From a virus, in IMG/VR virus record IMGVR_UViG_3300043420_000786, positions 1 to 53,965 of that record: a stretch of 53,965 nt of DNA. One strand, 5' to 3'. Position numbers and translations under genes: made by a program. Positions 16,659-50,248 of this stretch are shown one piece after another. Every line of letters starts with the position of its first letter. The stretch's first letter is position 1. The notes under the pieces were generated by a model. The model was not told where the DNA came from, searched no databases, and saw only the letters and a program-made list of their open reading frames with translations.

Positions 16659-16867
16659 TTCCTTTTATAGACAGAACAGATATAGTCAGAGATCCCGCTT
16701 CAAAAGCGGTGTTGTCTAGAGACAAGGCAGGATTCATTGAAGCAAAGAAAAGAAAAGAGATGGATAATAGATACATAAATCTAGAAAAAGAAATGACTAA
16801 TTTAAAAAATGAAACTGCTGAGATAAAACAATTATTGCGAGAACTGTTAAACAGAGGATCTAAATGA
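16655..16867 (+). CDS. Small coiled-coil structural-cluster protein
   Basis: A 70-residue protein. The N-terminus (RTDIVRDPASKAVLSRDKAG) resembles small conserved proteins next to fibre genes in cyanophages. Residues 28-66 form a strongly heptad-like charged helix (ALKKRKEM-type spacing ending LLRELLNRG), so an oligomerising coiled coil is likely. It overlaps both neighbours by 4 nt, so it is translated with them. Possible roles are a fibre chaperone or a small baseplate connector. The function is not known. Confidence 0.6.
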   Translation: MIPFIDRTDIVRDPASKAVLSRDKAGFIEAKKRKEMDNRYINLEKEMTNLKNETAEIKQLLRELLNRGSK

Positions 16868-19800
16868 GCACTAATACCGACGACATCATTTCAGGTGGTT
16901 TGTTTGCTCCCATTCAACCACTAAAACTGAATGACACCTTTTATACTTGGTACAATACTACCAATTTTATAATTGATGCTTTAAATCCATTAGCAATATA
17001 TGATGTTGCTTCTGGGCCTGGAATTGATGTTACTAAAATTACTGGTGGTGTTGCTGTTATAAGCATAAAAACAGGTTGCGGTCTTTCATTCGATTCTGGT
17101 GTTTCTCTTAAATTAGACATAGGAGGAACACCAGAATCATTAGAAGTACAAGCGCAAGATTATTTTGTTTTCGAGTCTTATACTGGAACTAATATCACTA
17201 CAGATAGTTCTGATTGCGAAACACTTTTTAAAGTAGAAGCAACAAATATGCTTCCTTACATTGTGTCTGGTGATCACGATTTTATTGGTGGTTCTTCCTC
17301 TGAATTTAAAGTCTCTTCTGATAATCTTGTAATAGATTCTCCCACAGTAGAATTTAAGACAACTAATATTTACCTTAATAACGATCCAGAGACTACAAAT
17401 GACGATTTTGTAACGAGATCGGAAATCGGATTTGCTGGTTTTACAGTTCATGCTTCCGACACATCTCCTACATTTGGATACGATGGTTCTCTTTTGGCTT
17501 GGAAGAGTAATCAAAATTTGTCTGTGGATAGCGATAAATCATTTGTTTCTGATTCTTCTGGTGTTAACTCTATATTCAATTTTAGCACCAAAACGGCAAA
17601 TCAAAGAAATGTTGTTGTTAATCTTTTAACTGGAAGTAGAGAATCAGATACAGATGATGGTAAAATATTCAGTATAAAAACATCGTTTACACTCAATAAA
17701 CTTCAATTTAACTTTTATAATGAACAAGATACTTTTGGTTCTGATTCTGAGATGTTCTCAGTATCTTATGATGAACTAACAGATCAATCTAATTTTCAAA
17801 TTCAGGGAACTCTTTATGTAAGAGACATTTCGGAATCTTCTCAGTTTTTAACAGAATCGGATTATACCAGTAATAAAGTTCCTTTGACGAATGGTTATGG
17901 TGTTTTGGATCATAAATTTAGCAATAGATTTGTAACTACCAAATACGATCCAAACATACAAGTTGGCGATTTGGTTCGTTTCGAATATTCCGATTATACA
18001 AATACAACAGAAGACATACAGATAGTTGCAGCACAAGCAGATACAGAAGAAAATTCAAAAGTAATAGGAATAGTAGAACAGATCGCTGGTGGAGAGGCAA
18101 TAATTGTTTTAACGGGTGTTTTTGAATACAACGGAGAATCAGTAAATATAACATCTGGTGATGTTTTTTACCTTTCCCAAACAAACGCGGGTTTGGCTAC
18201 AAGCATCAAACCAGAATTTGGCATAATAAAGGAAGTGTTTGTTGGTGTTGAGCCTTCTAAAGGTCTTCTTCTTTCCTCTGGAGTAACTAAAGAACCATTC
18301 TTTGCAAAAGTTCAAATTAGTGGAGGAAGTTTAGTAGAATCGGAATCTTCTGGAGATACTTTAATTCTTAAAGCAGGAAGTAATGTAAATCTAGAATATA
18401 CATCTAATAATGAAATCGAAATAAATGCTGGTTCTTTGAATGATGCAGATTATTGGAATACAATTTACACAAATACTGGATCTCCATCAAGAATAATCGC
18501 ATCTACAAACAATGATTCTTTTAGTTTACTCGGTGGAAACGGAATTTCTACAGAATCATCTTCTTCTACTATAACAATAAATGCTCCAAATTCTTATGGA
18601 GTCATACAAATAGTCGGAGAAAACACAGACGAATTAGATTATACATTATCCGCTTCCTCTGGTTCCGATACTCTAACAATTCGTTCTGGTACAGGAATAA
18701 ACATAACCTCTTCTACAAACAATGATATTGTTATAGAAGCAATAGGAATATCTGTACCAGCAAATAGAAGTGTTGGTAATCTGCAATTAGATGAAATGCC
18801 TGCTTTTAGTATAAAAGCAGCACAAGCAAACGGCGAACCAGTAGATGTGTATCAAATCACAGAAATACAAGAAATAACATACCCAGTTCTTGCTGAATAT
18901 TATAATGTCTATTACAATACAGATGGAGATAAAGTTTATCAAGATCCAATAACTCTTACAGAATACCCAACTATTTACAGTGAAGTTTTGGATTATAGAC
19001 TATCTACAGGAACACCAGATGCGATTGCTGGATATGTTTATGGTAGAGTTGTAGATGAATTGGGAAATGTTTCTGATATAAAACCACTGAATAGACAAGA
19101 ACTAAGACTTCTTATTGGTGCATCTGAAACTGGATTTTTGGAAGAGAACAATAAACTCTTTTCCTCTTGGCAATTATTTGATGATTCTGATTTATCTAAT
19201 AATATTGCTAGTGCTTATGCAGGCGACAAATCAGGTGTTCTCAGTGTTGTCTCTGGAACAGGTATAACTCTAGAATCGGAGATTTTGGACGATGGTTCTT
19301 CTGCTATAAAGATAATAGCAACAGGAGATGCTGCTGCTTTTTCCACAATTTATAACGAAACTACAAGCGAATCTCTTGAAGCCACCAGTATAGGTTCTAC
19401 TGTAAACATATCAGAAAGAGATGCTGTTGGTATAAATGTAACAAGCAACAATTCTTTAGATTTCTATATCAAAGACGCCAGTATAACCAACACTATGTTG
19501 GCCGATATGGTGGAAAACAGTGTAAAAGTAAACACTGGTGGAACAAACGATCCCACTCCTATTGATCTGTATATTGATGAAAACCAAATATTAGGAAGAC
19601 CACAAGGAGATTACCTTAAAGCACTGGATGCTTTAGAGGTGAGAACCATACTAGGTTTATCAAGTTCTTCTTACTACAAGTCATTTACTTGCTATACTGG
19701 AAGCACATTAGTAGGAACAGGTAATAGTTCGTATGATGAAGGTCTTATCTTCAGAGGAGGCACAAATATTTCTCTGACTGTTTTGGGCGATAACAGCATT

Positions 19801-21309
19801 AGAATTGATGCTTTAACCGATTCCGCTGTGCATGGCCTCAGAACAATAGGATTTACAGATTCTGGATCAGTATATACGACCACACATCTTGTAATAGAAG
19901 AACTTAGTTTAAATTCTGTAAATGGTCTTTATAAAAATATAGACATAACTCATGGTTATAACACAAACACAGCAACACTGACTACTGTGTTTGATTTGGG
20001 TGTTATGCCGCAAAGATCTGTAAAAGTTGCAGGAACTTCCTTTGATTATCAAAGAGGAGGTTATATTGCAAATAATTTGGTGTTGCAACAAGGCCATGTT
20101 CTTGGTGTAACTGAAACAGGGACTACCGTATCCAGCATACCATTCTCTGAAATAGTAGAAAATGCAAATCTAAATTATTTTAGTTCGGCTACAGTAGGTA
20201 ATACAAATATACCTGCTTTGGGTTCTAGTGTTTTGAGTTTTATTGGTGCAGGAGATACTTCTCTTTCGTATGAGAACGGAAATATAGTCATTTCTTCTGA
20301 CAGTAGTTTGATTACAGACAAACAACCAAAATTAGGCGGTAGTTTGGAACTAAATTTGAATTTTATAACTCAAAATACAAGAAAATCTCTGTTTGTTTCG
20401 AATACACTTACTAGTTCTACAAATCATTATTTGTCTATAAACAATTCTTCTTCATTGATAGAATTAAGAGCACTTAGAGACACATCAACTGCTTCTAGCA
20501 TAGATTTGAAACTGACGCCATATGGAACTGGTTCTGTGATATTGAATAAACTGTCTTCAGAGTCTTTAACAAATTTGACTTTAAGATCATCAAAAACAGA
20601 TGGTATAATATATTTTGATTCTACCAATTCTTCTCAAACTATTCTTAGTTCTTTAGGAAACAAGAGTATTTGTTTATCACCAGGCTCAGCATCATACGAT
20701 GTAAAAATGGTTTTTGATAATGGTACAAATAGCAGAATTTTAACAACTAGAAGAAACAACGACAATACTGCAATTATTCATTCCAATTCTGTTGGTAATC
20801 TTATACTTTGTGCGGGTTATACAGGAAACGGTGTCTCTACTGGTTCTACAAGTATACAGATGAATTCTGATGTGTTGATGAATTCTGCTAAGTCAATAAA
20901 GTCTACAGATAATATTGTAAAAATAAACACAACTGATTCTGGCTATTTAAAACTATCTGGAGATACAAAATCAACAACACATTCTGTTTCTTCTTTATCT
21001 TTCAATCCAAATGTTTCTAGAATAATAGATTCATTTAAATTGAGTACTTTTGGTAATTGTGTCAAGTACATAGTACGCGGAGAAAATCCATCAAACAGCG
21101 ATGATGTATTTGTTCTAGAATTCAATGTTCTTATAAATTCTACGGAAGAAATATCAGATGTAATCTCCTTGATACACCCAACGACATCTCCATCAAATAC
21201 TCAAAATTTATCAGTAGCAGTTAGTTCGGATGGAACCGATGTAGAAGTATCCCTAAATACCATCAGTGATTCGTATACTTTAACCATATACAGAACATCT
21301 TTAACTTAA
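16864..21309 (+). CDS. Long fibre-like structural protein with repeated beta modules
   Basis: A 1481-residue protein. The N-terminus holds LNDTFYTWYNTTNFIIDALN (21-40), the type of opening shared by gp10-like and fibre proteins of marine T4-like phages. Much of the body repeats a short beta unit of form GxGIxI....S..xIxIxA, with copies at about residues 493-520, 553-578, 606-635 and 792-820 (for example GTGINITSSTN and GTGITLESEIL). A module reading ITSGDVFYLSQTNAGLATS is also present, a type common in phage tail fibres. The C-terminal third is Ser/Asn-rich with no intramolecular chaperone motif that I can identify. It is probably a receptor-facing fibre or a gp10-like pin. It shares a 4-nt overlap with the coiled-coil gene. 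Confidence 0.65.
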   Translation: MSTNTDDIISGGLFAPIQPLKLNDTFYTWYNTTNFIIDALNPLAIYDVASGPGIDVTKITGGVAVISIKTGCGLSFDSGVSLKLDIGGTPESLEVQAQDYFVFESYTGTNITTDSSDCETLFKVEATNMLPYIVSGDHDFIGGSSSEFKVSSDNLVIDSPTVEFKTTNIYLNNDPETTNDDFVTRSEIGFAGFTVHASDTSPTFGYDGSLLAWKSNQNLSVDSDKSFVSDSSGVNSIFNFSTKTANQRNVVVNLLTGSRESDTDDGKIFSIKTSFTLNKLQFNFYNEQDTFGSDSEMFSVSYDELTDQSNFQIQGTLYVRDISESSQFLTESDYTSNKVPLTNGYGVLDHKFSNRFVTTKYDPNIQVGDLVRFEYSDYTNTTEDIQIVAAQADTEENSKVIGIVEQIAGGEAIIVLTGVFEYNGESVNITSGDVFYLSQTNAGLATSIKPEFGIIKEVFVGVEPSKGLLLSSGVTKEPFFAKVQISGGSLVESESSGDTLILKAGSNVNLEYTSNNEIEINAGSLNDADYWNTIYTNTGSPSRIIASTNNDSFSLLGGNGISTESSSSTITINAPNSYGVIQIVGENTDELDYTLSASSGSDTLTIRSGTGINITSSTNNDIVIEAIGISVPANRSVGNLQLDEMPAFSIKAAQANGEPVDVYQITEIQEITYPVLAEYYNVYYNTDGDKVYQDPITLTEYPTIYSEVLDYRLSTGTPDAIAGYVYGRVVDELGNVSDIKPLNRQELRLLIGASETGFLEENNKLFSSWQLFDDSDLSNNIASAYAGDKSGVLSVVSGTGITLESEILDDGSSAIKIIATGDAAAFSTIYNETTSESLEATSIGSTVNISERDAVGINVTSNNSLDFYIKDASITNTMLADMVENSVKVNTGGTNDPTPIDLYIDENQILGRPQGDYLKALDALEVRTILGLSSSSYYKSFTCYTGSTLVGTGNSSYDEGLIFRGGTNISLTVLGDNSIRIDALTDSAVHGLRTIGFTDSGSVYTTTHLVIEELSLNSVNGLYKNIDITHGYNTNTATLTTVFDLGVMPQRSVKVAGTSFDYQRGGYIANNLVLQQGHVLGVTETGTTVSSIPFSEIVENANLNYFSSATVGNTNIPALGSSVLSFIGAGDTSLSYENGNIVISSDSSLITDKQPKLGGSLELNLNFITQNTRKSLFVSNTLTSSTNHYLSINNSSSLIELRALRDTSTASSIDLKLTPYGTGSVILNKLSSESLTNLTLRSSKTDGIIYFDSTNSSQTILSSLGNKSICLSPGSASYDVKMVFDNGTNSRILTTRRNNDNTAIIHSNSVGNLILCAGYTGNGVSTGSTSIQMNSDVLMNSAKSIKSTDNIVKINTTDSGYLKLSGDTKSTTHSVSSLSFNPNVSRIIDSFKLSTFGNCVKYIVRGENPSNSDDVFVLEFNVLINSTEEISDVISLIHPTTSPSNTQNLSVAVSSDGTDVEVSLNTISDSYTLTIYRTSLT

Positions 21310-21684: not shown

Positions 21685-21716
21685 CTCCTCAAACATAAAT
21701 AAAAGAAATTGAGGAG
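21685..21716 (+). promoter_or_regulatory. Inverted repeat around the gene 13 late promoter and RBS
   Basis: CTCCTCAA (21685-21692) and TTGAGGAG (21709-21716) are perfect 8-base complements separated by 16 nt. The right arm contains the gene 13 Shine-Dalgarno (gaggag) and the loop contains the late box CATAAATA. A readthrough transcript could fold and hide the ribosome binding site. A transcript starting at the late promoter would lack the left arm. T4 uses this logic for gene e. Confidence 0.55.
21694..21701 (+). promoter_or_regulatory. Late promoter box CATAAATA for gene 13
   Basis: One mismatch to the T4 late consensus TATAAATA. The expected start point, about 6 nt downstream, falls just before the gaggag ribosome binding site and 14 nt before the ATG at 21722, which is good spacing for a late promoter. 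Confidence 0.55.
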
Positions 21717-22540: not shown

Positions 22541-23236
22541 ATGGCAACAAATCCATATTTCAATAACAACAAATATAAACCGACTCAAGATCTTATGGAA
22601 GATCTTATGATAGAATCCATAAAGACCAAGGGTATGGATGTTTATTATATTCCCAGAAGATATTCTGAAAAATTGGATACTATCTTTGGTGAAGATCCCA
22701 TGTCAAGTTTCAACATATCTTTTCCTATAGAAATGTATCTTGATACATTCAATGGATTTCAAGGAGACAATGAAGTTATCTCCAAGTTTGGAATAGAGAT
22801 CATGGATAACATGACATTAACTGTTTCAAAAAAGAGATTTGAGCAAGAAGCAAGCAAATTACCAGAATTACCAGATAGACCTATAGATCTGGATGCTCCT
22901 GCTATGGGAGACCTTATCTATTTTCCTCTTTCCAAAGGACTGTTTGAAATTAAATATGTTGACAACAAACAGATATTTTTTCAAGGCGGAAAACTCTACA
23001 CCTATAAACTAGAATGTGAACTCTTTAAGTATTCTATGGAACGAATTGACACAGGCGACAGCGATATTGACGAAATAGAAGATAATATAGTTCAGAGTAT
23101 AGATGAAGATGGTGATGGGGATATTGATTTTATCAGAGATGCAAAGAATCCAAGCGATAATGCACAGTTACAGACAGACGCTGCATCAATAGTTGACTTT
23201 ACAGAAGTGGATCCTTTCTCGGAGGGTAATTACTGA
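22541..23236 (+). CDS. 14: Neck protein gp14
   Basis: A 231-residue homologue of T4 gp14 (256), partner of gp13 in the head-completion neck. The N-terminal NPYFNN segment, QDLMEDLMIESIKTKGMDVY, YIPRR and GEDPMSSF (51-58) are typical. The middle has LTVSKKRFEQE and a PxDLDAPAMGDLIYFP stretch, followed by an EIKYVDNKQIFFQ strand. The C-terminus is acidic with a DEDGDGDID stretch. It follows gene 13 directly and overlaps the gene 15 start by 1 nt, so 13, 14 and 15 form one translation unit. Confidence 0.92.
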   Translation: MATNPYFNNNKYKPTQDLMEDLMIESIKTKGMDVYYIPRRYSEKLDTIFGEDPMSSFNISFPIEMYLDTFNGFQGDNEVISKFGIEIMDNMTLTVSKKRFEQEASKLPELPDRPIDLDAPAMGDLIYFPLSKGLFEIKYVDNKQIFFQGGKLYTYKLECELFKYSMERIDTGDSDIDEIEDNIVQSIDEDGDGDIDFIRDAKNPSDNAQLQTDAASIVDFTEVDPFSEGNY

Positions 23237-23904
23237 TGTTTACCACATTCTATCACGGTTTAATAAAGAAAGCAGTTGTATCTTTTGGTACTCTGTTTAA
23301 TAATCTGTATATTGTTAGAACAGCAGGAAGTGAAACTCAAAAAATAAAAGTTCCTCTTGTTTATTCTCCCAAAGAAAAATTCATTCAAAAACTTGAGCAA
23401 AGTTTTGCAGATTTAAGAAATCAAGCAACACAAATAACTCTTCCTAGAATGTCTTTCTACATTTCAAACATGCAATATGACCCAGAAAGAAAAAAGAACA
23501 GTATACACAAAAGAGTAAAGGAAACGGTAACGACTAACGACGATGTAGAGTTTTCTTTTCATCATAGTAATGTTCCTTACAATTTAGATTTTACTTTATC
23601 TTGTTATGTTAGAAACATGGATGATGGTTTGCAGATAGTAGAACAAATACTTCCATATTTTACACCAGAATTTACTATAACAATAAAACCTGGAGTTTTG
23701 GGAGACGAAAACGAAAAATTAGACATACCCATAGTCTTGTCCTCAATAACCACAGAAGAAAAAGCAGATGGTTCTTTGGTTCAAGAAAACACAAGGTTCA
23801 TTACTTGGGATTTAACATTTACAGCAAAAATGATGATATATGGTCCAGTAAAATCTGGTAATGTCATAAAAACAGCAGATATAAATCTGTTTGATATGGA
23901 GTAA
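23236..23904 (+). CDS. 15: Tail terminator/sheath stabiliser gp15
   Basis: A 222-residue homologue of T4 gp15 (272), the hexamer that caps the finished tail tube and sheath and receives the head. Family features include the opening FYHGLIKKAVVSFGTLFNNL, the segment KEKFIQKLEQSF, and LPRMSFYISNMQYDPERKKN (78-97), with NVPYNLDFTLSCYVRNMDDG following. The usual next gene in T4 is 16, but here a foreign-looking cassette of three genes follows. Confidence 0.92.
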   Translation: MFTTFYHGLIKKAVVSFGTLFNNLYIVRTAGSETQKIKVPLVYSPKEKFIQKLEQSFADLRNQATQITLPRMSFYISNMQYDPERKKNSIHKRVKETVTTNDDVEFSFHHSNVPYNLDFTLSCYVRNMDDGLQIVEQILPYFTPEFTITIKPGVLGDENEKLDIPIVLSSITTEEKADGSLVQENTRFITWDLTFTAKMMIYGPVKSGNVIKTADINLFDME

Positions 23905-23907
23905 CAT

Positions 23908-24078
23908 ATGGCATTTAAAAGAGCACAAATAACGGTATCACCAATTCTTTATGAACAAGACACCAATGGTGATTATTTACTGGATACAAACAACAATAAA
24001 ATTGTTCAAAATGATGATCCGAATCAAATATCACCATCATCAGATTATTCAGTAACTATTATTATTCAGGAAAATTAG
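23908..24078 (+). CDS. Small 56-residue protein, unknown
   Basis: A short open frame with ATG at 23908 and TAG at 24076-24078. It fills exactly the gap between gene 15 and the propeller gene: 3 nt after one stop and 1 nt before the next start. The product begins MAFKRAQITVSPILYEQDTN, is Asn/Asp-rich in the middle and ends in a beta-like segment SDYSVTIIIQEN. No family was recognised and there are no membrane segments. Its tight placement suggests it is translated as the first gene of the accessory cassette, perhaps as a small partner of the next protein. Confidence 0.6.
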   Translation: MAFKRAQITVSPILYEQDTNGDYLLDTNNNKIVQNDDPNQISPSSDYSVTIIIQEN

Positions 24079-24079
24079 T

Positions 24080-26020
24080 ATGCCATTTGATAAAAGAAAC
24101 ATATCATCATTTCAGAGAAATGTGAATATAAATGAAGGAAGTTTTTTTTGGAAAAAAGTCATTGTAGATTCTGTAAAATATACAGAGTCTTTGTTGCAAT
24201 TAGATAGATTAAAAAGAACAAATTATTCAAGTATAAATGGTTTTGATTTAGTTGAAGAAGTGTCTTTAGATACTATGTCTTATTTTTCAGATAATGGAAG
24301 TAAGATAGCATTTTTCAATAAATTAAATGATGGTAGTAAAACAATTAATATTTACTCTATAAATCTACAACAAAAAACCAAAACATATTTACACAATGTT
24401 AATATTACGAATACTGTTTTTAGTGCCAAATCATCTGAAAATTGTTTTGTATCAAATGATGGAAAATATTTACTATTGAGCGTACCAAGCGCAAGCACAG
24501 TTTATTTTTTTGATGTAGTAAACGGAACTCTTCTTCAAACAATAACAGATGAACAAATCAATTTCGGTTCTTTAATAGCAATTGATTCGGATTTTAAAGG
24601 ATTAGCAATTTCTACAAAATATTTGAGAAGAGAACCAAATGAATATGACGGGAGAATTACTGCTAACGATTGTTCTAGTTTAATTCATTTTTATAAAAGA
24701 AACTATAAAAGTAAACAGCCTCAAAAATTCAAGAAAATACATTCAAAAACTGCATTTTCTCCCTTTGTAGATAATGGTTGTGCTTTTCCTCAATCTTTTC
24801 CTTATGGTATTGTTTATGAATACACGGGTCTAGAACCAAATGTTTATCAATTTAATGGTGTTTACAGATTTTCTGATATTTACTGCAAGCATGATAATTT
24901 TTCTCATTGCTCTCTTGCGCTAAAAGAAGACCAACTCGCATATAAATCAAGATTTTTTAACTACGACTCTTCAAGATATTCTATTAGAAATTTGATATCG
25001 ACAAATATAAGACAATCAGAATATTTAAAAGCAAGTAATCTTTATTCTCCAGGCTCAGGTTTTTTGCAATTTATAAGAAATGATTCTTTTTACAACAATT
25101 CTACATATAAATTAATAAATCATCCTTCTTGTAATATTTTCAACATAATTAAAACCATAGATGATACAGAAATAATAGACAATAGCATTTATTCTAGTGT
25201 TCCGATAGGAACAAATATGCATATCTCAGATGGAACTACCATTGATCTGTTTGGTGATCAGGCATATTTAGATAATTTTAATAAAAAACATATAGTATAT
25301 CATTTGACTAATTTTTATACACAAGACTCAATATATGATTTTTCTGCTTATGAGCAACTTTTATCCAATGAACAATTGATGATTGAAAATAAAGTATGCG
25401 TAAATGACTTCTATGTTTTTAACATTTCAGTGTTTTTAAGTAATGGAATAAAAAACATAAGAATTAATCGTTATCCTATAAAATCATCAGACAATCTGAA
25501 CACTTTTGCATACTTTGATCATTCTTACAATGGTTCTGGTTATTCTAATTTGCCAGATGATCCTGGCGTTGGATTGGTAAAAATACTATACGAGACAGGT
25601 GAAAAAAGTAACTTAGAAAATACATTTTTAACAAAGGAACAAATTCAGAATATGTTTTCTGATCCTCAGACTGGTCAGGTATTTGTAGACGCTAGAGTTT
25701 CTTATAATAAACCATTTCTAGAAAATCCCACACAGTGCGTTGATTGTGAATTTTCTCTTGAAATATCTTCTGTTTTGAATCAATCTTTTAAAAATTGTTT
25801 ATGTTCTAATGATTATTTGTTTTTAAATTTTGAGTCTAATACTTTGGTATTTAAAATTCATTCTGATGTTTGTAAATCTGTAAAATATATAAATCAAATA
25901 GACACGATAAAGGACTATGATTTTTGCTATACAAGCACTGGTGAATATTTTTCTATGTATAATAAAATTTATAAACTCAATAGAACATCTGGAGTTATAG
26001 AAGAAAGTATGGTGCTTTGA
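24080..26020 (+). CDS. Beta-propeller-like protein in the accessory cassette
   Basis: A 646-residue protein of unknown function, clearly AT-richer than its neighbours. Several stretches read like propeller blades, for example residues 52-90 (FSDNGSKIAFFNKL... INIYSINLQQ) and 120-156 (FVSNDGKYLLLSVPSASTVY, then FFDVVNGTLLQTI). The C-terminal 600-646 blade (YDFCYTSTGEYFSMYNKIYK) could close the ring with the N-terminus. The centre (about 200-560) is a large Tyr/Asn/Ser-rich insertion. I see no signal peptide, transmembrane helix or catalytic motif. It sits between gene 15 and the hydrolase gene, overlapping the latter by 1 nt (TGATG). A virion-attached binding or adsorption protein is the simplest guess. 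Confidence 0.55.
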   Translation: MPFDKRNISSFQRNVNINEGSFFWKKVIVDSVKYTESLLQLDRLKRTNYSSINGFDLVEEVSLDTMSYFSDNGSKIAFFNKLNDGSKTINIYSINLQQKTKTYLHNVNITNTVFSAKSSENCFVSNDGKYLLLSVPSASTVYFFDVVNGTLLQTITDEQINFGSLIAIDSDFKGLAISTKYLRREPNEYDGRITANDCSSLIHFYKRNYKSKQPQKFKKIHSKTAFSPFVDNGCAFPQSFPYGIVYEYTGLEPNVYQFNGVYRFSDIYCKHDNFSHCSLALKEDQLAYKSRFFNYDSSRYSIRNLISTNIRQSEYLKASNLYSPGSGFLQFIRNDSFYNNSTYKLINHPSCNIFNIIKTIDDTEIIDNSIYSSVPIGTNMHISDGTTIDLFGDQAYLDNFNKKHIVYHLTNFYTQDSIYDFSAYEQLLSNEQLMIENKVCVNDFYVFNISVFLSNGIKNIRINRYPIKSSDNLNTFAYFDHSYNGSGYSNLPDDPGVGLVKILYETGEKSNLENTFLTKEQIQNMFSDPQTGQVFVDARVSYNKPFLENPTQCVDCEFSLEISSVLNQSFKNCLCSNDYLFLNFESNTLVFKIHSDVCKSVKYINQIDTIKDYDFCYTSTGEYFSMYNKIYKLNRTSGVIEESMVL

Positions 26021-28107
26021 TGGCAATCATTATTAATGATTTATGTTTTGGTTTAAAAACAAAAGATACAAATCTGAACAACACTTCACCATTTTTGTTA
26101 ACAGATTCTGTCGATACTTCTACTAATTTTTACTTTTGTTCAAACATCTTGTTCTTGAATCAAAAAAGGAATCAATTAGGATTGCCTTCTATAAACACAC
26201 AAATGAATTTAATTGTGTTTGTTTGTGATCAGATAAACAACAACATTTTTCAGACATTAATTTCAATAAAAACATATAAAATCAATCTTTTAAATGATTA
26301 TATTAATGGTGATATAACTGATTCTTTTTTGATTCACGATGATATGTGCGATAGCATGAGTCACGAAGAGATACTATCTCTATGTAAAGAGCACAAAGTA
26401 ATTTTTAGAATTTCAACAACAAATGATGTGGATCCGTTTTTAAAAAATGGCGATATTGTAAACAATATAAAGATAGTTTTAGATACAAAACAACCTGGAC
26501 CATACAGTGTCCAGTTTGAAAGCGTGGATATGTTAAATCCACAAGAATTTACAAATGAAGAAAGAATAAATTCTTATGAAACTTGTCTTGGTCTTTTTGG
26601 ATTTGAAAGTATAAGAGTTTTTTATCCAAAAGAAGCACTGGATAATTCATATTTGATGCCCATAGTTTGTATACAGCATGGAATTGGTCAAGAACACTGG
26701 GGTTATGATGTGTATGCATCTAAATTAGCATCCTATGGGTATTTTGTTTGCTATTTATTTCAAGAAACATATACAAAAAGTCCTACCGCTACTGGTGGAA
26801 CTATGCAAGATGGTAATTACCACATTTTAGGTAAATTGCGACATTTAAAAAACAACATTGATAAAATAAAAAATGGTAAATTTCAAAATAAATTAAATTT
26901 TGATAAAATAACATTGATGGGTCATAGTCAAGGAGGAGAAAAGGTAAAATCTGCTTGTAGTGAAGTGGGTGTGGATCCTTCTGCTGGTATTGATATCAAC
27001 AGTATAATGTGTCTAGTTGTTATCAATGGTGCTCTGGATAGTATAAGTACTCTAGGCACTGGTGAATCATTGTTGTGTACAAATTCCAGTATACCAAATA
27101 CCAGTTTTAATCTTCCTAAAAATATACCAATACTTTTACTAAATTCTGATAGAGATGAAGTTACTAAATCATTGATGCCAACTTGGTTTGTAAATTATGG
27201 GTTAAATTCTGATACCTTAGAAAATGAAGTACCTAAAAGAATTATATTCATAAGAAATTCACAACACGGTGGAGCAATTATTGATTACAATTTTAAAAAC
27301 TATATCAACATTCCCAGTGGATATAACATAGATACTCGATATTTTTACACATACAACTCAAGAGCAAATAATTTAGGTTTTGTTTCTTCGGATCTTGTAA
27401 ATTTTTTAAGTTTATGTCTGAAACAGAAAACCAAAAATTATTTAAAAAACACAAATACACATTCTATTTCACCCAATCAACAAAAAATAAGAGATTTTTC
27501 TTATAGTTTAGATCATGTACCATTTTCCGATGTTAGGCTAGTTGTAGACAAATTTAACAATGTAAATCCAGAAAGATCATTTGGTAATTTAACTTTTTTC
27601 TTACAAACTCAAGATGCAAGAGATCTGCCTTCTGTTTCAGATATTTTTACAGGAATTGTTTCTAGGAGTTGTTCTGGTAGTAGTGATGGTGCTTGTGTAT
27701 TGACGATTACACAAGATTCTTATCTTCAATTCGAAAGAAGTTCTTTTAATTTAAACAATTCTAATTACATCGAAGTACACTGTGGGATGATGGATGATCC
27801 TCTGAATACTAATACCGAAAATTTTCATTTTTGTTTAGAATTGATAGATTCGCTGGATAATTCGTCTATTATCAGCAGTAGCATGATGAATATAGGAATT
27901 CCATCTAAAACAACTACAACTTCTCCGCTCCCAGAAAGTCACGAATTTATTTGTGCATTTCCCGTCAAATTTAACATAAAACAACTACAACAAAATAATA
28001 TTGATCTAGATTTAAGAAATATAACAAAAATTATTCTAAGATTTGGTTCTTCATACGGAACTTCGATTGGTAAAATTTACATAAATAGAATACAAGTGAC
28101 AATTTAA
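26020..28107 (+). CDS. Alpha/beta-hydrolase (putative virion-associated esterase/depolymerase)
   Basis: A 695-residue protein with an alpha/beta-hydrolase domain at about residues 190-430. The expected elements appear in order: oxyanion strand VCIQHGIG (H220-G221), nucleophile elbow GHSQGG (S303), acid loop LLLNSDRDEV (D377 or D379) and catalytic histidine NSQHGG (H416). The HG...GHSxGG layout resembles the dienelactone-hydrolase and polyester-hydrolase branch. Residues 1-190 are of unknown fold. Residues 510-695 are beta-rich with VVDKFNNVNPERSFGNLTF and IDLDLRNITKIILRFG, suggestive of a jelly-roll carbohydrate-binding module. The start is taken as ATG 26020, which overlaps the previous stop by 1 nt; a TTG just upstream is less likely. 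It lies where T4 has nothing, between genes 15 and 16. The substrate is unknown; host-surface polymers or O-acetyl groups are plausible. Confidence 0.72.
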   Translation: MAIIINDLCFGLKTKDTNLNNTSPFLLTDSVDTSTNFYFCSNILFLNQKRNQLGLPSINTQMNLIVFVCDQINNNIFQTLISIKTYKINLLNDYINGDITDSFLIHDDMCDSMSHEEILSLCKEHKVIFRISTTNDVDPFLKNGDIVNNIKIVLDTKQPGPYSVQFESVDMLNPQEFTNEERINSYETCLGLFGFESIRVFYPKEALDNSYLMPIVCIQHGIGQEHWGYDVYASKLASYGYFVCYLFQETYTKSPTATGGTMQDGNYHILGKLRHLKNNIDKIKNGKFQNKLNFDKITLMGHSQGGEKVKSACSEVGVDPSAGIDINSIMCLVVINGALDSISTLGTGESLLCTNSSIPNTSFNLPKNIPILLLNSDRDEVTKSLMPTWFVNYGLNSDTLENEVPKRIIFIRNSQHGGAIIDYNFKNYINIPSGYNIDTRYFYTYNSRANNLGFVSSDLVNFLSLCLKQKTKNYLKNTNTHSISPNQQKIRDFSYSLDHVPFSDVRLVVDKFNNVNPERSFGNLTFFLQTQDARDLPSVSDIFTGIVSRSCSGSSDGACVLTITQDSYLQFERSSFNLNNSNYIEVHCGMMDDPLNTNTENFHFCLELIDSLDNSSIISSSMMNIGIPSKTTTTSPLPESHEFICAFPVKFNIKQLQQNNIDLDLRNITKIILRFGSSYGTSIGKIYINRIQVTI

Positions 28108-28108
28108 A

Positions 28109-28558
28109 ATGAACAATGATTTTGAAAATAAAATGGAACAGATCTTTGATCTTGAAGTAAGCAAACAAGTGCCTTCTTCTGTGGGTGACATTCTTCCTGT
28201 AAAGGAAGTAGTAGTCAATAAAGAAGATGTTGATAAAGATTACACCACAGTCAGAGAGAATCTAAAAGATATAGTAAGAAGAGGAACAGAAGCAATAGAC
28301 GGAATAATGTTAGTTGCTTCTGAAACACAATCCCCAAGAGCATACGAAGTAGTAGCAACATTAATTAAGAGTGTTGCTGATGCTAACAAAGATCTTCTAT
28401 CCCTACACAAACAGATCAAAGAAATTAAGAAGACAGAGGTAAACAACAACACCACAAATGTAACAAATAATTCTTTGTTTGTTGGAAGTACATCTGAACT
28501 TCAAAAATTAATCAAGGGTAAAGTCAAGGAAATAGACGAAACTAAGTTTGAAGAATGA
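28109..28558 (+). CDS. 16: Small terminase subunit gp16
   Basis: A 149-residue homologue of T4 gp16 (164), the DNA-recognition and regulator subunit of the packaging motor. The central part (VRENLKDIVRRGTEAIDGIM, then SPRAYEVVATLIKSVADANK and LLSLHKQIKEIKK) is the two-helix coiled-coil oligomerisation core seen in T4-like gp16. An Asn/Thr-rich segment and a charged tail follow. The stop overlaps the gene 17 start by 4 nt. Confidence 0.88.
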   Translation: MNNDFENKMEQIFDLEVSKQVPSSVGDILPVKEVVVNKEDVDKDYTTVRENLKDIVRRGTEAIDGIMLVASETQSPRAYEVVATLIKSVADANKDLLSLHKQIKEIKKTEVNNNTTNVTNNSLFVGSTSELQKLIKGKVKEIDETKFEE

Positions 28559-30171
28559 ACAATAATACATCATATCTTGGAAATGATAATTTAAAGGCTG
28601 CTGGAGTAAAGGTAAGTTTTACTCCAGACCAGATCGAAGAGTACATTAAGTGTGCAAACGATCCTGTGTATTTTATCCGTAAGTACATAAAAATCATCAA
28701 TCTGGACAAAGGTTTGGTGAATTTTGATATGTATAAATTTCAAGAAAACATGGTCAATACGATTCACAACAATCGTTTTACCATAGCAAAACTACCCCGT
28801 CAGTCGGGTAAATCCACCACGGTCGTTTCCTATATTCTTCATTACATACTGTTCAATCCAGAGGTCAATGTTGCAATTCTTGCACACAAACAGGAAATCG
28901 CTCGTGAACTATTGGGTAAACTAAAAGTGGCATATGAATATTTGCCAAAATGGCTACAGCAGGGTGTAGTGGAGTGGAATAAGGGTTCTATCGTTTTGGA
29001 AAACAAATCCAAAGTAAAAGCATCCGCCACTTCCTCTTCGGCTATTCGTGGTGGTTCTTTCAATATGATATTCTTGGACGAGTTTGCGTATGTCCCCCCA
29101 AACATCGCAGATGACTTCTATGCGTCAGCCTACCCCACTATATCCTCTGGTACTGATACTAAGGTGTTGATATTCTCTACACCTAACGGGTTGAATATGT
29201 ACTACAAGATCTGGACGGATGCAGAAGAGAATAGAAATTCATTTGTTCCCATATCTGTTCATTGGTCGGATCTTCCAGGTCGAGATCAGGACTGGAAGAA
29301 ACAACAAATTTCTAACACTTCTGCTGAACAGTTTCGTGTAGAGTATGAATGCGATTTCATAGGTTCCACTAACACTCTTATTGCTGCCACCAAACTCAAG
29401 AGTATGACATACAAGACGCCTATTTCAAAAAATGAACAAGGATTATGTATCTACGAATACCCCCACAAGGATCACATCTATGTGATGTCGGTAGACACAT
29501 CAAGAGGAGCGGGGTTCGATTATCACGCATTTACGGTAATAGACATAACAGAAATACCATACAAAGTCGTTGCTACTTTTAAGAATAACGAACTGTCTCC
29601 TATGATATATCCTAATGCTATTTACCCAATCGCACAGAAGTATAATGATGCATATGTTTTGGTGGAGATCAACGATATTGGTGGACAAGTAGCCGACATT
29701 CTATACAACGAACTTGAGTATGAAAATATGCTTATGTCCAGTTTTCGTGGTCGCAAAGGACAAACTCTAGACGGTGGATTCGGTTCTTCCCAAACTCAAT
29801 TAGGTGTTCGAACAACCAAACCCATAAAAAGAATTGGCTGTTCTATCCTAAAAAGTATGATAGAGGACGACAAGTTAATTATTTCTGATTTATATATAAT
29901 ACAGGAATTAGTAAGTTTTGTTGCCAAATCTGCATCTTTTGAAGCGGATACTGGTCATAATGATGACTTGGTAATGTGTTTAGTGCTTTTTGGTTGGTTG
30001 ACTACTCAAAATTATTTTAAAGATCTCACAAATATGGATATTCGTAAGAGACTATTTGACGAGAAACTCAAACAACTAGAAGAAGAAATTGTGCCCTTTG
30101 GATTTATTGAAAATGGTTTGAATTCTGACGATGAACCAGATCAGCAAGGTAATATTTGGCAAACTTACTAA
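28555..30171 (+). CDS. 17: Large terminase subunit gp17 (packaging ATPase/nuclease)
   Basis: A 538-residue homologue of T4 gp17 (610), the two-domain motor that cuts concatemeric DNA and pumps it into the prohead. ATPase elements are Walker A PRQSGKST (81-88), Walker B MIFLDE (171-176) and the coupling motif STPNG (208-212). The RNase H-fold nuclease starts at VMSVDTSRG (D314), with VEINDIGG in the middle and the late acidic motif HNDDLVM. All key residues are present. It is shorter than T4 mainly at the ends. An AT-rich 62-nt gap then leads to gene 18. Confidence 0.95.
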   Translation: MNNNTSYLGNDNLKAAGVKVSFTPDQIEEYIKCANDPVYFIRKYIKIINLDKGLVNFDMYKFQENMVNTIHNNRFTIAKLPRQSGKSTTVVSYILHYILFNPEVNVAILAHKQEIARELLGKLKVAYEYLPKWLQQGVVEWNKGSIVLENKSKVKASATSSSAIRGGSFNMIFLDEFAYVPPNIADDFYASAYPTISSGTDTKVLIFSTPNGLNMYYKIWTDAEENRNSFVPISVHWSDLPGRDQDWKKQQISNTSAEQFRVEYECDFIGSTNTLIAATKLKSMTYKTPISKNEQGLCIYEYPHKDHIYVMSVDTSRGAGFDYHAFTVIDITEIPYKVVATFKNNELSPMIYPNAIYPIAQKYNDAYVLVEINDIGGQVADILYNELEYENMLMSSFRGRKGQTLDGGFGSSQTQLGVRTTKPIKRIGCSILKSMIEDDKLIISDLYIIQELVSFVAKSASFEADTGHNDDLVMCLVLFGWLTTQNYFKDLTNMDIRKRLFDEKLKQLEEEIVPFGFIENGLNSDDEPDQQGNIWQTY

Positions 30172-34288: not shown

Positions 34289-35878
34289 ATGCCTGATAAT
34301 TATGATCTAAACACATTTCAAAACGAATCCATAGACTCTTGTGCTGATGGTAATTGCGGAAGATCTGTTGTTACAAATGCAAACGATAATGATGGAGACT
34401 GTTGTATACCAGGTCCACAGGGTCCAGAAGGACCTGCTGGAAAAACCGGTCCAGCAGGACCAATAGGGGCCGCTGGCAGACCTCCTGTAATTCGTTGTGG
34501 TTGCTTACCCACAAACGAAACAGATGGTGGAAGCAACAGTCCTATACAGCAAGAGTGTATTGATGATTTAAAAGGCAGAGTTGTTATATCAAACCCTAAT
34601 ATTGATTATTATGGGGCCGGAACAACATCAAATGGTTTTTACCAAGTAAACTGTTCTCCTGCTACTTTTTGTGGTTATTTCAATGTAACTAATCCAAACC
34701 AACAAACCCCCCCTCTTGGTTCTTTTACAGGTAATCTCGGTAGTCCGTCCGTAGATATAAATGGTGATAAAAACATTGTTGCTTGGGGTTATATTGGAAC
34801 AGGAGATGTACCAAATATAAATTACACTTGGTCTTATGGTGATTTTAAGAAATTAAATGGACTGAATGGTGATAAATTAACAGCATCTACAGGAGGAGTA
34901 AGTAAGTTTACATTCATGCCAACGGATCCACTATTTGCTGGTGGTGGAACAATAAATCTAACAGAATTTAAAAATTTAGTAGGAGGCACACCTTCCGAGG
35001 AATTAACAGCAGCATTTTTAGATGATTTTCCACAGTGTGCAACTGACGGAACTGGCACACCTCCAAGTGGAAAAAACGGTCAAGGAGCAAGTATATGCTC
35101 AAATTTAAGCAGTCCTTGTGATTGCACAGGATGTGATGAAAACAATAGATTGACTTCTTGTGATGGTTTACAAGCAGGAGATATGTTTGTTGATGCTTGT
35201 AACAAGGTAATGTATATCAGAGGAAGTGAGGATTGGCCGACAGACGGGATCCCTTTTGATGAAGGGGCAGACTGCCCTGCTTGTCCATCTTGTCCAGATT
35301 GTCCAGGCTGTCCAGAATGTCCACCACAAAACTGCAAAGAATGTCCTTGTGAATGTAACGACATATTGCCTCCACAAATTTGTAATTGTGTAGGTCTACT
35401 CAGTGGTCTTGTGGGCACTGATTGTAATTGTCCCGGCGGTCTTGGGCCACCAAAATGTCCAAGAGAGTGTAGTAACGGTAACGGTGTTTTCTATCAAGAT
35501 GAAGCAAAAGAATGTGGGTGTGATACAAATCAAACATATGTTGGTTGTGTTGATTGTAAACAAGAGCCTACTATTATATGCGAGTGTCCAGAAGGAAAAA
35601 CAGCAGGATGCTGCGAAACCTGTCCTCCCCCTAAAACTTGTGCAGAACTCGATTGTTGTACAGAATGTCCTACACCTACTTGTGAATCTTTAGGTTGTCC
35701 CTGTCCCCCCGCAGACCAGTTTGGTAATTGTGGTTGTCCGCCGTCGCCTATTGGTGGATGTACTCCAACACTTGGATGCTGCATATTTGGCGATGAGTAT
35801 GATATTTGCCTACCCCTGAGTTGTTGTGGTGGGCCTAGTTCTTTTACTCAAAATGGTGCTCTTTTATTGGGTGAATAA
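34289..35878 (+). CDS. Cysteine-rich collagen-like protein
   Basis: A 529-residue protein without a counterpart in T4. Residues 42-65 are eight consecutive Gly-X-Y triplets (GPQGPEGPAGKT, then GPAGPIGAAGRP), a short collagen-like helix flanked by cysteines. Residues 90-250 look like a compact globular domain. From about 255 to the end the chain is extremely cysteine-rich (about 55 Cys in the whole protein, roughly one in ten), with CPxCP repeats at about 327-345 (CPACPSCPDCPGCPECP) and repeated CCxxC pairs. There is no signal peptide. It begins 11 nt after the portal gene with a good RBS (gaagagga) and is followed after 3 nt by a glycosyltransferase-like gene. A disulfide- or metal-stabilised head or neck fibre is a reasonable inference. 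Confidence 0.7.
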   Translation: MPDNYDLNTFQNESIDSCADGNCGRSVVTNANDNDGDCCIPGPQGPEGPAGKTGPAGPIGAAGRPPVIRCGCLPTNETDGGSNSPIQQECIDDLKGRVVISNPNIDYYGAGTTSNGFYQVNCSPATFCGYFNVTNPNQQTPPLGSFTGNLGSPSVDINGDKNIVAWGYIGTGDVPNINYTWSYGDFKKLNGLNGDKLTASTGGVSKFTFMPTDPLFAGGGTINLTEFKNLVGGTPSEELTAAFLDDFPQCATDGTGTPPSGKNGQGASICSNLSSPCDCTGCDENNRLTSCDGLQAGDMFVDACNKVMYIRGSEDWPTDGIPFDEGADCPACPSCPDCPGCPECPPQNCKECPCECNDILPPQICNCVGLLSGLVGTDCNCPGGLGPPKCPRECSNGNGVFYQDEAKECGCDTNQTYVGCVDCKQEPTIICECPEGKTAGCCETCPPPKTCAELDCCTECPTPTCESLGCPCPPADQFGNCGCPPSPIGGCTPTLGCCIFGDEYDICLPLSCCGGPSSFTQNGALLLGE

Positions 35879-35881
35879 AAA

Positions 35882-36835
35882 ATGAAAATAGTGCAAAGTT
35901 TTTTTACAGATTCTTTAATAAATGGTAATAGTAGCGATATTTCGTCTATAAAAACATTAACAGGTATAACTGATAAAGAAAAAAATACATTCTATTGGTA
36001 TGTTTGGTTGACTTCGGTGATGTCTTTTGTGGAAAAAGGATACGAAGTAGAATTAGTTGCTGATGAAAACGGTAAAAGAATACTAGTAGATTTGCTAGGA
36101 TTGCCTTATAAAAATGTAGTAATAGAAACAAACTTACCAAAATCAAAATATCTTTGGGCTTTAGGTAAACTGAAAGCATACAGCATTCAGAATGAACCTT
36201 TTTTGCATTTTGATGGTGATGCTTTTTACAGAAAACAATTACCAGAAGTAGTTTCCCCTCTGTTCGTACAAGACATCATTGAAGAGAAGGCTACATTTAC
36301 GGACGAATATTATGTAACTACAAAAGATATAATCAAAAACTTTCACAATGTTCCCACTCAAATAATTAAAATAGCAGAAGATTATGATAAAAAAGATTAC
36401 ATTGAAAAAGTAAATGTGGGTGTTATTGGTGGAAAGGATGTTGAATTATTAAAAACATACAGTAAAACAATGCTGAATTTTGTAGAAGAAAATTTACAAA
36501 ATATTGATTATTTTCTAAAAAACAAATCTCCCAGATATATCACTATTTTTATGTCCTGCCTAGAAGAACTTTCTCTTTTACAGTTTTACAAAGAAAAATA
36601 TGGGGACCTTCGCAGCATACAGACTGCAATTGGCTATATTGATATTAGAGACTTACAAGAGCAAAAGACTTTTATGGAATCCAGAAGTAGAGAGACAGGA
36701 TACACACATTATATGGGTATTGGTAAATCGAACAACACCGAAAAAATGATAGAACACAGACAAAAGTTAATAAATGATGCTAGAAAAAAATACCCAGAAT
36801 ATTGCGAACTGTTCGATTATCACCTAAATAAGTAA
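35882..36835 (+). CDS. Glycosyltransferase-like protein (DxD motif, DUF6734-like)
   Basis: A 317-residue protein. The opening MKIVQSFFTDSL, the segment KNTFYWYVWLTSVMSFVEKG, YEVELVADENGK, a PKSKYLWALGKLKAYSIQ helix and HFDGDAF (109-115, DGD at 111-113) follow the layout of DxD-type glycosyltransferases, most like the family known as DUF6734. The acidic DGD would bind a metal and nucleotide-sugar. No membrane segment is visible, so it would act in the host cytoplasm. It starts 3 nt after the collagen-like gene and is surely co-transcribed, so that protein is an obvious possible acceptor. DNA or another virion protein could also be the acceptor. Confidence 0.6.
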   Translation: MKIVQSFFTDSLINGNSSDISSIKTLTGITDKEKNTFYWYVWLTSVMSFVEKGYEVELVADENGKRILVDLLGLPYKNVVIETNLPKSKYLWALGKLKAYSIQNEPFLHFDGDAFYRKQLPEVVSPLFVQDIIEEKATFTDEYYVTTKDIIKNFHNVPTQIIKIAEDYDKKDYIEKVNVGVIGGKDVELLKTYSKTMLNFVEENLQNIDYFLKNKSPRYITIFMSCLEELSLLQFYKEKYGDLRSIQTAIGYIDIRDLQEQKTFMESRSRETGYTHYMGIGKSNNTEKMIEHRQKLINDARKKYPEYCELFDYHLNK

Positions 36836-48235: not shown

Positions 48236-48684
48236 TATTTGCTACAAAAGAACAAACAAAAGAAATATACGATATTTTCCGCAAGAGAGGAGACATATTT
48301 CCACACATCCGTTTTGATTATGTGAGCAGAGCGATCAATAGTGGTCGGTGTGTTTATCAGGACGGTGTGGTGATAATCTTCAGTGTATACAAGAAAAGAA
48401 CAAGAGTTGGCACTTGTGGTATACCAAGAAACAACTGTATGCTTCATCAAATAGTCAACGGATCTGAAGGAAACGGTAAAGCAAAGGAAGTTCTCAATCA
48501 ATTTCTTGCCTACATATCTTCGCTCAACTTGCCAGCAGTTTGGTTGAGTGTAAGAGCCGACAATAAAAGAGCGACAGATTTCTATGAAAGGAATGGATTT
48601 CTTCAAGTCGGTAGTGTAGAATGGATGAACGGAACTCTAGCAGGATTGATATTCAGGTATTCAAATGAACAAACCATACTATGA
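48232..48684 (+). CDS. GNAT-family acetyltransferase-like protein
   Basis: A 150-residue protein of the GNAT fold. The acetyl-CoA-binding motif A region is HQIVNGSEGNGKAKEVLNQF (about 82-101), and the following PAVWLSVRADNKRATDFYER, NGF is the usual motif B. The substrate is not predictable. It overlaps gene 46 by 4 nt and the DNA methyltransferase gene by 20 nt, so it is translated with them. Phage Mu Mom, a DNA-modifying enzyme, has a GNAT-like fold, so a role in base modification is a speculative option alongside protein acetylation. Confidence 0.75.
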   Translation: MIFATKEQTKEIYDIFRKRGDIFPHIRFDYVSRAINSGRCVYQDGVVIIFSVYKKRTRVGTCGIPRNNCMLHQIVNGSEGNGKAKEVLNQFLAYISSLNLPAVWLSVRADNKRATDFYERNGFLQVGSVEWMNGTLAGLIFRYSNEQTIL

Positions 48685-50248
48685 ACGAAATGATTATGTG
48701 ATTAACTCAAAGATAAATGTGCTCTTTGAGGATCTTCTCGAAATGACCCCACAGGACTTTGAGAAGTGGGTAGTCGAAATGCGTAAGGAAATTCTTTATG
48801 CTTGGGACACATATGGTTGTCCACCAAGAACAGGCAAGAGCGAACAAGATATAGTAGATCAATTTAATCGTTTGGAGTCCTTTCCTGTTCACGAATTCAC
48901 AAATTCCGATGAACTATCGAATACTCCTGACGATGTGATTATTAACAAGTCAAGAGTTGGTGTGGAAGTAGATCAGTTCTTTTCCAATATGTTCAAGACG
49001 CGAATCAATTATTCCGATAAGGATAATGGATATTCTATTTACGATTTGTTCGCCAAGGATGAGTTTCTACCTAGAATAGTGAAGGGTGCTGCTCGTCACC
49101 TTAGACGCGATTCGATGTATAAGCACGCTTTGTCTGCCATTCGCAACGACAAGAAATATTCTATTGTAGATGTGAATAATGCCGATGAGTGGATGGATGC
49201 TTTCTTCAGCAATCCGTCTGTGTTTACTGGTTATGATTTTATGTTGGAACAAGTGGAACCCAGAGAAGGTCTTAATTCTGGGTATTTTCAAATTGAACAA
49301 AACAAGATCCTTCATTTGACCAAGGAACAGTTCATCAAGTGGAAACCAAAGATGTCTTATCGGCATTATTCCACATTCGATGCTGACAATCTTCCTGATG
49401 ATAAGATCTATGCGCTTAGAGTTTATAAGAAGGGAGAGAAGGTTTTTCCTGCTGGCTTTGCCTCTTTCCGTATTGGTTACATTCAACCAGCAGTAAATTT
49501 TCCTCCTTTAACAGCAAAGTATTTGTATGAAAGATTTACGGAACATATTGATAAATCTAGCACAATTAACATATATGATCCCTCTAGCGGCTGGGGCGGC
49601 CGTATTTTGGGTGCTATGTCTATTTGTGACGACCGTTGTGTGCATTATATTGGTACTGACCCAAATCCTGAAAACTATCCACCAAACCTTAATAAATTTG
49701 GTAAGTATGGTAGTATTGCCGAATTTTACAACACAAAAACATATAGAGGTAATGGACTATTCTCGTCTACCAATACCTACGAAGTGTTCCAACTCGGCTC
49801 AGAAGTAGTCAGACAAGACGCAGGATTTCAAAAATACAAAGGTAAACTAGATTTGGTGTTTACTTCTCCTCCATATTTTAATAGAGAAGCATACTCAGAA
49901 GATCCAAATCAATCTTATAAGAAGTTTTCTTCATATGATAACTGGAGAGATGGGTTCCTTCGGCCTACTTTGGAAACTTGTGTAGAGTGGCTTCGATCTG
50001 AAAGATACTTGCTTTGGAATATTGCCGATCTTTTGGTGAAAGGTGAATACCTCCCTTTGGAAGAGGACTCAAGAAAGATACTAGAAGAGATGGGCATGAA
50101 ATACAAGATGACTGTGAAGATGGCTCTTGAACCCATGCCTGGAACCAATCGTATAGGTGAAGACGGTATCCCCAAGTGCAAGAATTACTGCAAGGTGGGT
50201 GGACGGTATTTGAAATATGAACCAGTTTTTGTATTCTGGAAGCCTTGA
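48665..50248 (+). CDS. DNA methyltransferase (N4-cytosine/N6-adenine type)
   Basis: A 527-residue protein. SAM-binding motif I is YDPSSGWGGRILGA (about 304-317) and catalytic motif IV is TSPPYF (about 400-405, SPPY), which is characteristic of amino-methyltransferases. LLWNIADLL and the C-terminal KYEPVFVFWKP complete the fold. The first 300 residues are an extension of unknown function (MTPQDFEKWVVEMRKEILYA... YIQPAVNFPPLTAKYLYERF). Gene order GNAT-MTase with a 20-nt overlap suggests a joint function. It may protect phage DNA from restriction or mark it; no matching endonuclease gene is in the window. Confidence 0.85.
   Translation: MNKPYYERNDYVINSKINVLFEDLLEMTPQDFEKWVVEMRKEILYAWDTYGCPPRTGKSEQDIVDQFNRLESFPVHEFTNSDELSNTPDDVIINKSRVGVEVDQFFSNMFKTRINYSDKDNGYSIYDLFAKDEFLPRIVKGAARHLRRDSMYKHALSAIRNDKKYSIVDVNNADEWMDAFFSNPSVFTGYDFMLEQVEPREGLNSGYFQIEQNKILHLTKEQFIKWKPKMSYRHYSTFDADNLPDDKIYALRVYKKGEKVFPAGFASFRIGYIQPAVNFPPLTAKYLYERFTEHIDKSSTINIYDPSSGWGGRILGAMSICDDRCVHYIGTDPNPENYPPNLNKFGKYGSIAEFYNTKTYRGNGLFSSTNTYEVFQLGSEVVRQDAGFQKYKGKLDLVFTSPPYFNREAYSEDPNQSYKKFSSYDNWRDGFLRPTLETCVEWLRSERYLLWNIADLLVKGEYLPLEEDSRKILEEMGMKYKMTVKMALEPMPGTNRIGEDGIPKCKNYCKVGGRYLKYEPVFVFWKP

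Follow-up and report, generated by a model that had tools for sequence, protein, structure and literature searches.

An exchange slot between genes 15 and 16 of a T4-like phage clade known only from metagenomes, and the two-gene insert that occupies it

Organization of the locus

The window, i.e., the whole stretch of DNA analysed (53,965 nucleotides; IMG/VR virus record IMGVR_UViG_3300043420_000786), is from a T4-like phage whose clade is known only from metagenomes. Its TerL is less than 60% identical to that of every annotated phage, the nearest being Methylophilales phage Melnitz and cyanophages. Genes are arranged in the order gp13 (from 21722), gp14 (22541), gp15 (23236), p56, prop, hyd, gp16 (28109), gp17 (28555) and gp18. 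The upstream flank is gene 15, tail sheath stabiliser (23236–23904, plus strand, as are the other features of this locus; Pfam T4-gp15_tss, E = 2.4e-66). The downstream flank is gene 16, small terminase (28109–28558; PHROG 445, E = 1e-40). Three tightly packed ORFs lie between them: p56 (23908–24078), encoding a conserved 56-aa protein; prop (24080–26020), encoding 646 aa; and hyd (26020–28107), encoding 695 aa. The gp15/p56/prop/hyd/gp16 spacers are 3, 1, −1 and 1 nt. This layout is as given in an earlier reading of the same DNA (the sequence-only reading), except that prop and hyd are joined by a 1-base overlap (TGATG) and not by a spacer.

The G + C content is 27.2% in prop and 29.4% in hyd vs 31–43% in neighbouring core genes, and to that extent the insert is AT-richer than its flanks, as had been claimed. 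Third-position GC is 0.17–0.20 in the two genes and 0.19–0.25 in the baseplate genes of the window. Since these values are close, the low G + C content reflects mainly amino-acid composition, and a foreign origin of prop and hyd, considered on the grounds of base composition, was found unconvincing. No transposase, integrase, recombinase or endonuclease is present among the window ORFs, the absence of the first two having already been noted in the sequence-only reading. No tRNA was found, and no direct repeats flank the insert. The insert is without hallmarks of a mobile genetic element (recombinase, endonuclease, terminal repeats).

The conserved 56-residue protein

Relatives were collected via gp15, gp17 and a p56 profile; p56 was recognized in them by HMM matches. 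Among loci with gp15 of at least 50% identity and gp16 in view, p56 lies directly 3' of gp15 in 34 of 35 (exception, L086). It is present also at empty sites, where gp16 comes next, and the protein is identical in the window and in L001. No match to p56 was obtained in Pfam or PHROG, and no convincing copy in annotated phages or in the loci of cyanophage S-SM1 and of Melnitz. p56 is a core gene of this phage clade, not an accessory one. Because it is conserved in the clade and kept at empty sites, the accessory part consists of prop and hyd only (24080–28107). The cassette described earlier as three accessory genes is thus reduced to two, and the expected absence from close relatives holds for prop and hyd, not for p56. 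In L128 (7989–9659), p56 runs on in frame into a slot protein of 500 aa before gp16; this natural fusion argues for a physical association of p56 with slot proteins.

In loci that do not carry p56 (L095, 1194–2597, and about 30 others), gp15 often has a C-terminal extension, mostly of 29–75 aa and of 251 aa in L095. The extension is absent from loci carrying p56, so that the two are mutually exclusive. An origin of p56 as a detached C-terminal tail of gp15 was not retained: profile comparison gave no homology and the pattern follows clades. It is kept as a lead only.

The slot between p56 and gene 16

In the closest sister, L005 (gp15 84%, gp16 89% identical), p56 is followed by gp16 within about 20 nt; the site is empty, which bears out the earlier claim of an accessory insertion between genes 15 and 16. 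The prop–hyd pair occupies the p56–gp16 site in the window, L001 and L160. The same slot holds a single 1157-aa protein in L042 and L006, giant fn3/TIG proteins in L011, L012, L072, L086, L127, L132 and others, and still other occupants in L050 and L149. On the gp15 tree, nine slot states (empty, two-gene, 1157-aa, fn3, others) need eight changes. On the concatenated gp13–15 tree, the window and L001 are sister to the empty L005 (100/98), and L160, with the same pair, is sister to L042/L006, with another body (100/99). With L160 grouped this way and the window beside an empty site, slot bodies are out of step with the phage tree. The p56–gene 16 junction thus serves this T4-like clade as an exchange slot within its structural module.

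Several further observations were made on slot occupants. Giant fn3-repeat proteins reach at least 2654 aa (L072, L086, L125, L127, L129, L131, L132, L133, L137) and have in common a short motif at the N-terminus, SxGxYxSGExVxNxVF, which is a candidate for another front end. The body of the L042 slot protein has GDS- and DxxH-like motifs, seen by eye only. In a distant group of loci without p56 (L091, L105, L106, L110, L112, L119), a protein of about 820 aa, unassigned to a family, lies directly between gp15 and gp16. Next to the insert, gp17 (28555–30171 in the window, 5903–7519 in L001) has a dS of 0.57 between window and L001 vs 0.09–0.25 in other late genes, with the protein 98% identical; this looks like recombinational replacement.

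The insert proteins

The first protein, prop, is divided into a front end, the putative anchor (residues 1–53; 24080–24238), with N-terminal matches to L042/L006, and a body (residues 54–646; 24239–26020), homologous in L001, L160, L162 and L163. Over its residues 1–48, L160 prop shares 58% identity (E = 4e-14) with the beginning of the 1157-aa protein of L042, with no similarity beyond; the L160 body matches the body of window prop. When the N-terminus of window prop was compared with 856 ORF N-termini (own copies excluded), L042 scored 62, L006 56 and the next best 38. In L162 and L163, homology starts only at residue 54–66 and the front end is different. By the L160/L042 match and the N-terminal scores, the front end remains tied to the phage lineage, and it is the body behind it that is swapped. 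A conserved N-terminus under an exchanged C-terminal body, the hallmark of anchor-plus-body proteins, is found in prop on comparison of L160 with L042.

Residues 59–197 of prop gave signals to PD40 (E = 0.026) and 6-phosphogluconolactonase (E = 0.0076), both sub-threshold; the PD40 signal came from one fragment, and whole window prop gave no match. The prop profile had no match in the PDB. AlphaFold returned a pLDDT of 28.7 from a two-sequence alignment. From the sub-threshold profile signals, the body is possibly a beta-propeller, and the propeller-like call of the sequence-only reading is kept at that strength.

The second protein, hyd, is an alpha/beta hydrolase of PETase/cutinase-like type, with putative ester hydrolysis. 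A five-sequence hyd profile matched GlacPETase (8x6v) with E = 1.4e-5 and other PETases and cutinases with E of about 0.002, over the nucleophile region, and the alpha/beta-hydrolase call made earlier was thereby upheld. The L160 hyd core gave 20.2 bits to PAF-AH (cut-off, 20). The core spans residues ~187–420 and is followed by a beta-rich C-terminal domain (~540–695). The candidate triad is S303 (26926–26928), D377 (27148–27150) and H416 (27265–27267). S303, in GHSQGG, is present in all five hyd copies; D377 and H416 are present in three of five and are not conserved in L162 and L163, in which hyd activity is for this reason uncertain. AlphaFold returned a pLDDT of about 30 for hyd, also from a two-sequence alignment. 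The GHSxG nucleophile region and the strands preceding it are shared with GlacPETase and PHL-7; hyd differs from these enzymes in being phage-borne, in being extended by about 185 aa at the N-terminus and about 200 aa at the C-terminus, and in that Asp and His are not conserved in its two distant copies.

Copies of the pair

The pair was detected five times (window, L001, L160, L162, L163), with the two genes always adjacent, prop then hyd. L160 is 46% (prop) and 44% (hyd) identical to the window. L162 and L163 are from other large phages with a different gene neighbourhood; one is clearly T4-like, and a cyanophage-like UvsX is encoded on the contig of L163. Searches with tblastn of prop and hyd against annotated phages gave no match, plasmids yielded weak alpha/beta hydrolases only, and nothing was found in genome contigs. 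Pfam does not place either insert gene as metabolic. PADLOC models of anti-phage defence families gave no match at E ≤ 0.1, and a defence-gene reading of the insert was rejected on this result.

The patchy presence of the pair, its AT-richness and its occurrence in other phages would suit a largely neutral or selfish two-gene moron, spread by phage–phage recombination and having no role tied to the slot. Such an origin is quite improbable given that both genes are under purifying selection (dN/dS 0.19–0.20 for prop and hyd, window vs L001) and that ORFs are intact and their order kept in five copies down to ~30% identity; the lack of recombinase, endonuclease and terminal repeats also speaks against it. 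That prop and hyd are internal head or ejected proteins, acting in the host cytoplasm as infection starts, is highly improbable. Some ORFs neighbouring the pair in L162 and L163 begin MKxFxxxLxE-like, resembling by eye the capsid-targeting sequences of T4, but the window proteins do not start in this way, neck genes are adjacent to them, and other slot occupants carry fn3/TIG domains.

Late-promoter motifs

The late-promoter motif, known as NATAAATA in S-PM2 (PMC2984593), is present in the window as CATAAATA at 21694–21701 (plus strand), 28 nt 5' of gp13, a conserved motif position. It precedes gp13 in 39 of 58 loci, mostly by 28–36 nt (0.02 expected per site), is found also before gp19, and is almost never found before gp14, gp15 or p56. 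With a motif before gp13 and none before p56, the insert would be read together with 13-14-15-p56, in agreement with its earlier placement in a late operon.

A second CATAAATA lies within the 3' end of the hyd gene (28080–28087, plus strand), 29 nt 5' of gp16. It is present also in L001, and is absent in L160 and at almost all empty sites. A motif precedes gp16 in 4 of 15 loci with an insert, as against 1 of 62 with an empty site (p = 0.004 by Fisher's test, uncorrected for kinship). That gp16 has its own late promoter whenever an insert is present is no rule: L160, L042 and L011 are without the motif.

Proposed role and comparison with known systems

On balance, prop and hyd probably form a surface-binding/esterase module that is expressed late, is associated with the virion and has an exchangeable body; we infer the virion location from position and modularity. 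Virion association gains indirect support from the gp13 promoter motif, the conserved front end, the L128 fusion and the fn3/TIG occupants of other loci. Domains of the fn3 and TIG types are usual on virion surfaces. Counting against a virion module, no recognisable structural genes of the type seen in the window surround the pair in L162 and L163. As a module of this kind, the slot product would be a late one, expressed when transcription from the gp13 promoter reads through into the insert. Its front end would dock it on the particle, with p56 or the vicinity of the gp13–15 neck/tail-top complex as the probable attachment point. The prop body may bind a host-surface or environmental ligand, and hyd may cleave off groups attached by ester bonds to lipids or surface polymers of the host, like known phage tail esterases. 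With a new body, the preference for host or surface would shift, and assembly would be unaffected.

The site falls in a part of the T4 structural module already known for insertions. In T4-like cyanomyoviruses, the hyperplastic region g15–g18 contains 4–14 inserted genes, often host-like and metabolic (Millard 2009; PMC2984593, PMC3037559). Both are hypervariable insertion points with contents differing among close relatives; the slot described here lies exactly at the p56–gene 16 boundary, and its content is one or a few large proteins of modular build, not 4–14 genes of metabolic type. In S-SM1, extra genes are located between 16 and 17. By analogy with the metabolic genes zwf, gnd and PTOX of the cyanomyovirus g15–g18 region (PMC2984593, PMC3037559; S-SM1 map), the slot might be a tolerant insertion point, and the pair a late, unpackaged intracellular auxiliary enzyme pair: an esterase/lipase with host lipid or a storage polymer as substrate, or a lysis aid. 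The esterase-like nature of hyd fits this role, and packaging is a deduction from position and modularity. The role is nonetheless unlikely, as a slot-specific front end under unrelated bodies is needless for an unpackaged enzyme, p56 is fused to a slot protein in L128, and the other occupants are large fn3/TIG-type proteins, not metabolic enzymes.

The virion-module reading has its closest parallel in modular receptor-binding proteins (RBPs) with an N-terminal anchor and an exchangeable enzyme, as in Klebsiella phages (PMC6872550, PMC8262889). A short conserved front end and a swapped body, in some cases enzymatic, are common to both. Those proteins are encoded in tail fibre genes, whereas the present site lies between neck and terminase genes; no sequence relation was found, and virion attachment is here presumed. 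Phage tail polysaccharide esterases/deacetylases (Aristophanes, PMC8471582; Possum, PMC9569702) resemble hyd in the proposed action, deacylation of polysaccharide on the host surface; they are of SGNH type, whereas hyd is an alpha/beta hydrolase encoded in a separate, overlapping gene. The kind of system is known (T4-like hyperplastic region, modular RBPs); what is new in this variant is where it lies, p56 as its marker, and the type of content.

Extended to the whole clade, p56 and the slot proteins might form an undescribed exchangeable virion appendage of T4-like phages near the neck or tail top, with a conserved adaptor and varied bodies (esterase–propeller pair, fn3 giants, others) attached via short clade-specific front ends, i.e., a host-contact device apart from the tail fibres. 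This wider proposal is tentative and rather doubtful. If slot products are on the virion, p56 marks a site of exchangeable surface proteins in uncultured T4-like phages, metagenomes would give a direct view of host-contact diversity, and body exchange could be tested on this module. Otherwise, the slot would still extend the known g15–g18 hypervariable region to phages other than cyanophages, and different large phages would still share a gene pair whose front end can be replaced.

Other genes of the window

A fast-evolving late protein of 1481 aa with no family match is encoded at 16864–21309 (61% in L160, 72% in L005, ~39% in L047), upstream of gp13; we take it to be roughly in place of T4 wac. 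Between gp20 and gp21 lies an ORF (34289–35878) whose protein is rich in Cys and Pro and has a short collagen-like segment; a DUF6734 protein comes next (35882–36835; E = 1e-42). The ORF at 48665–50248 has an FTSPPYF motif and is DNA methyltransferase-like by eye.
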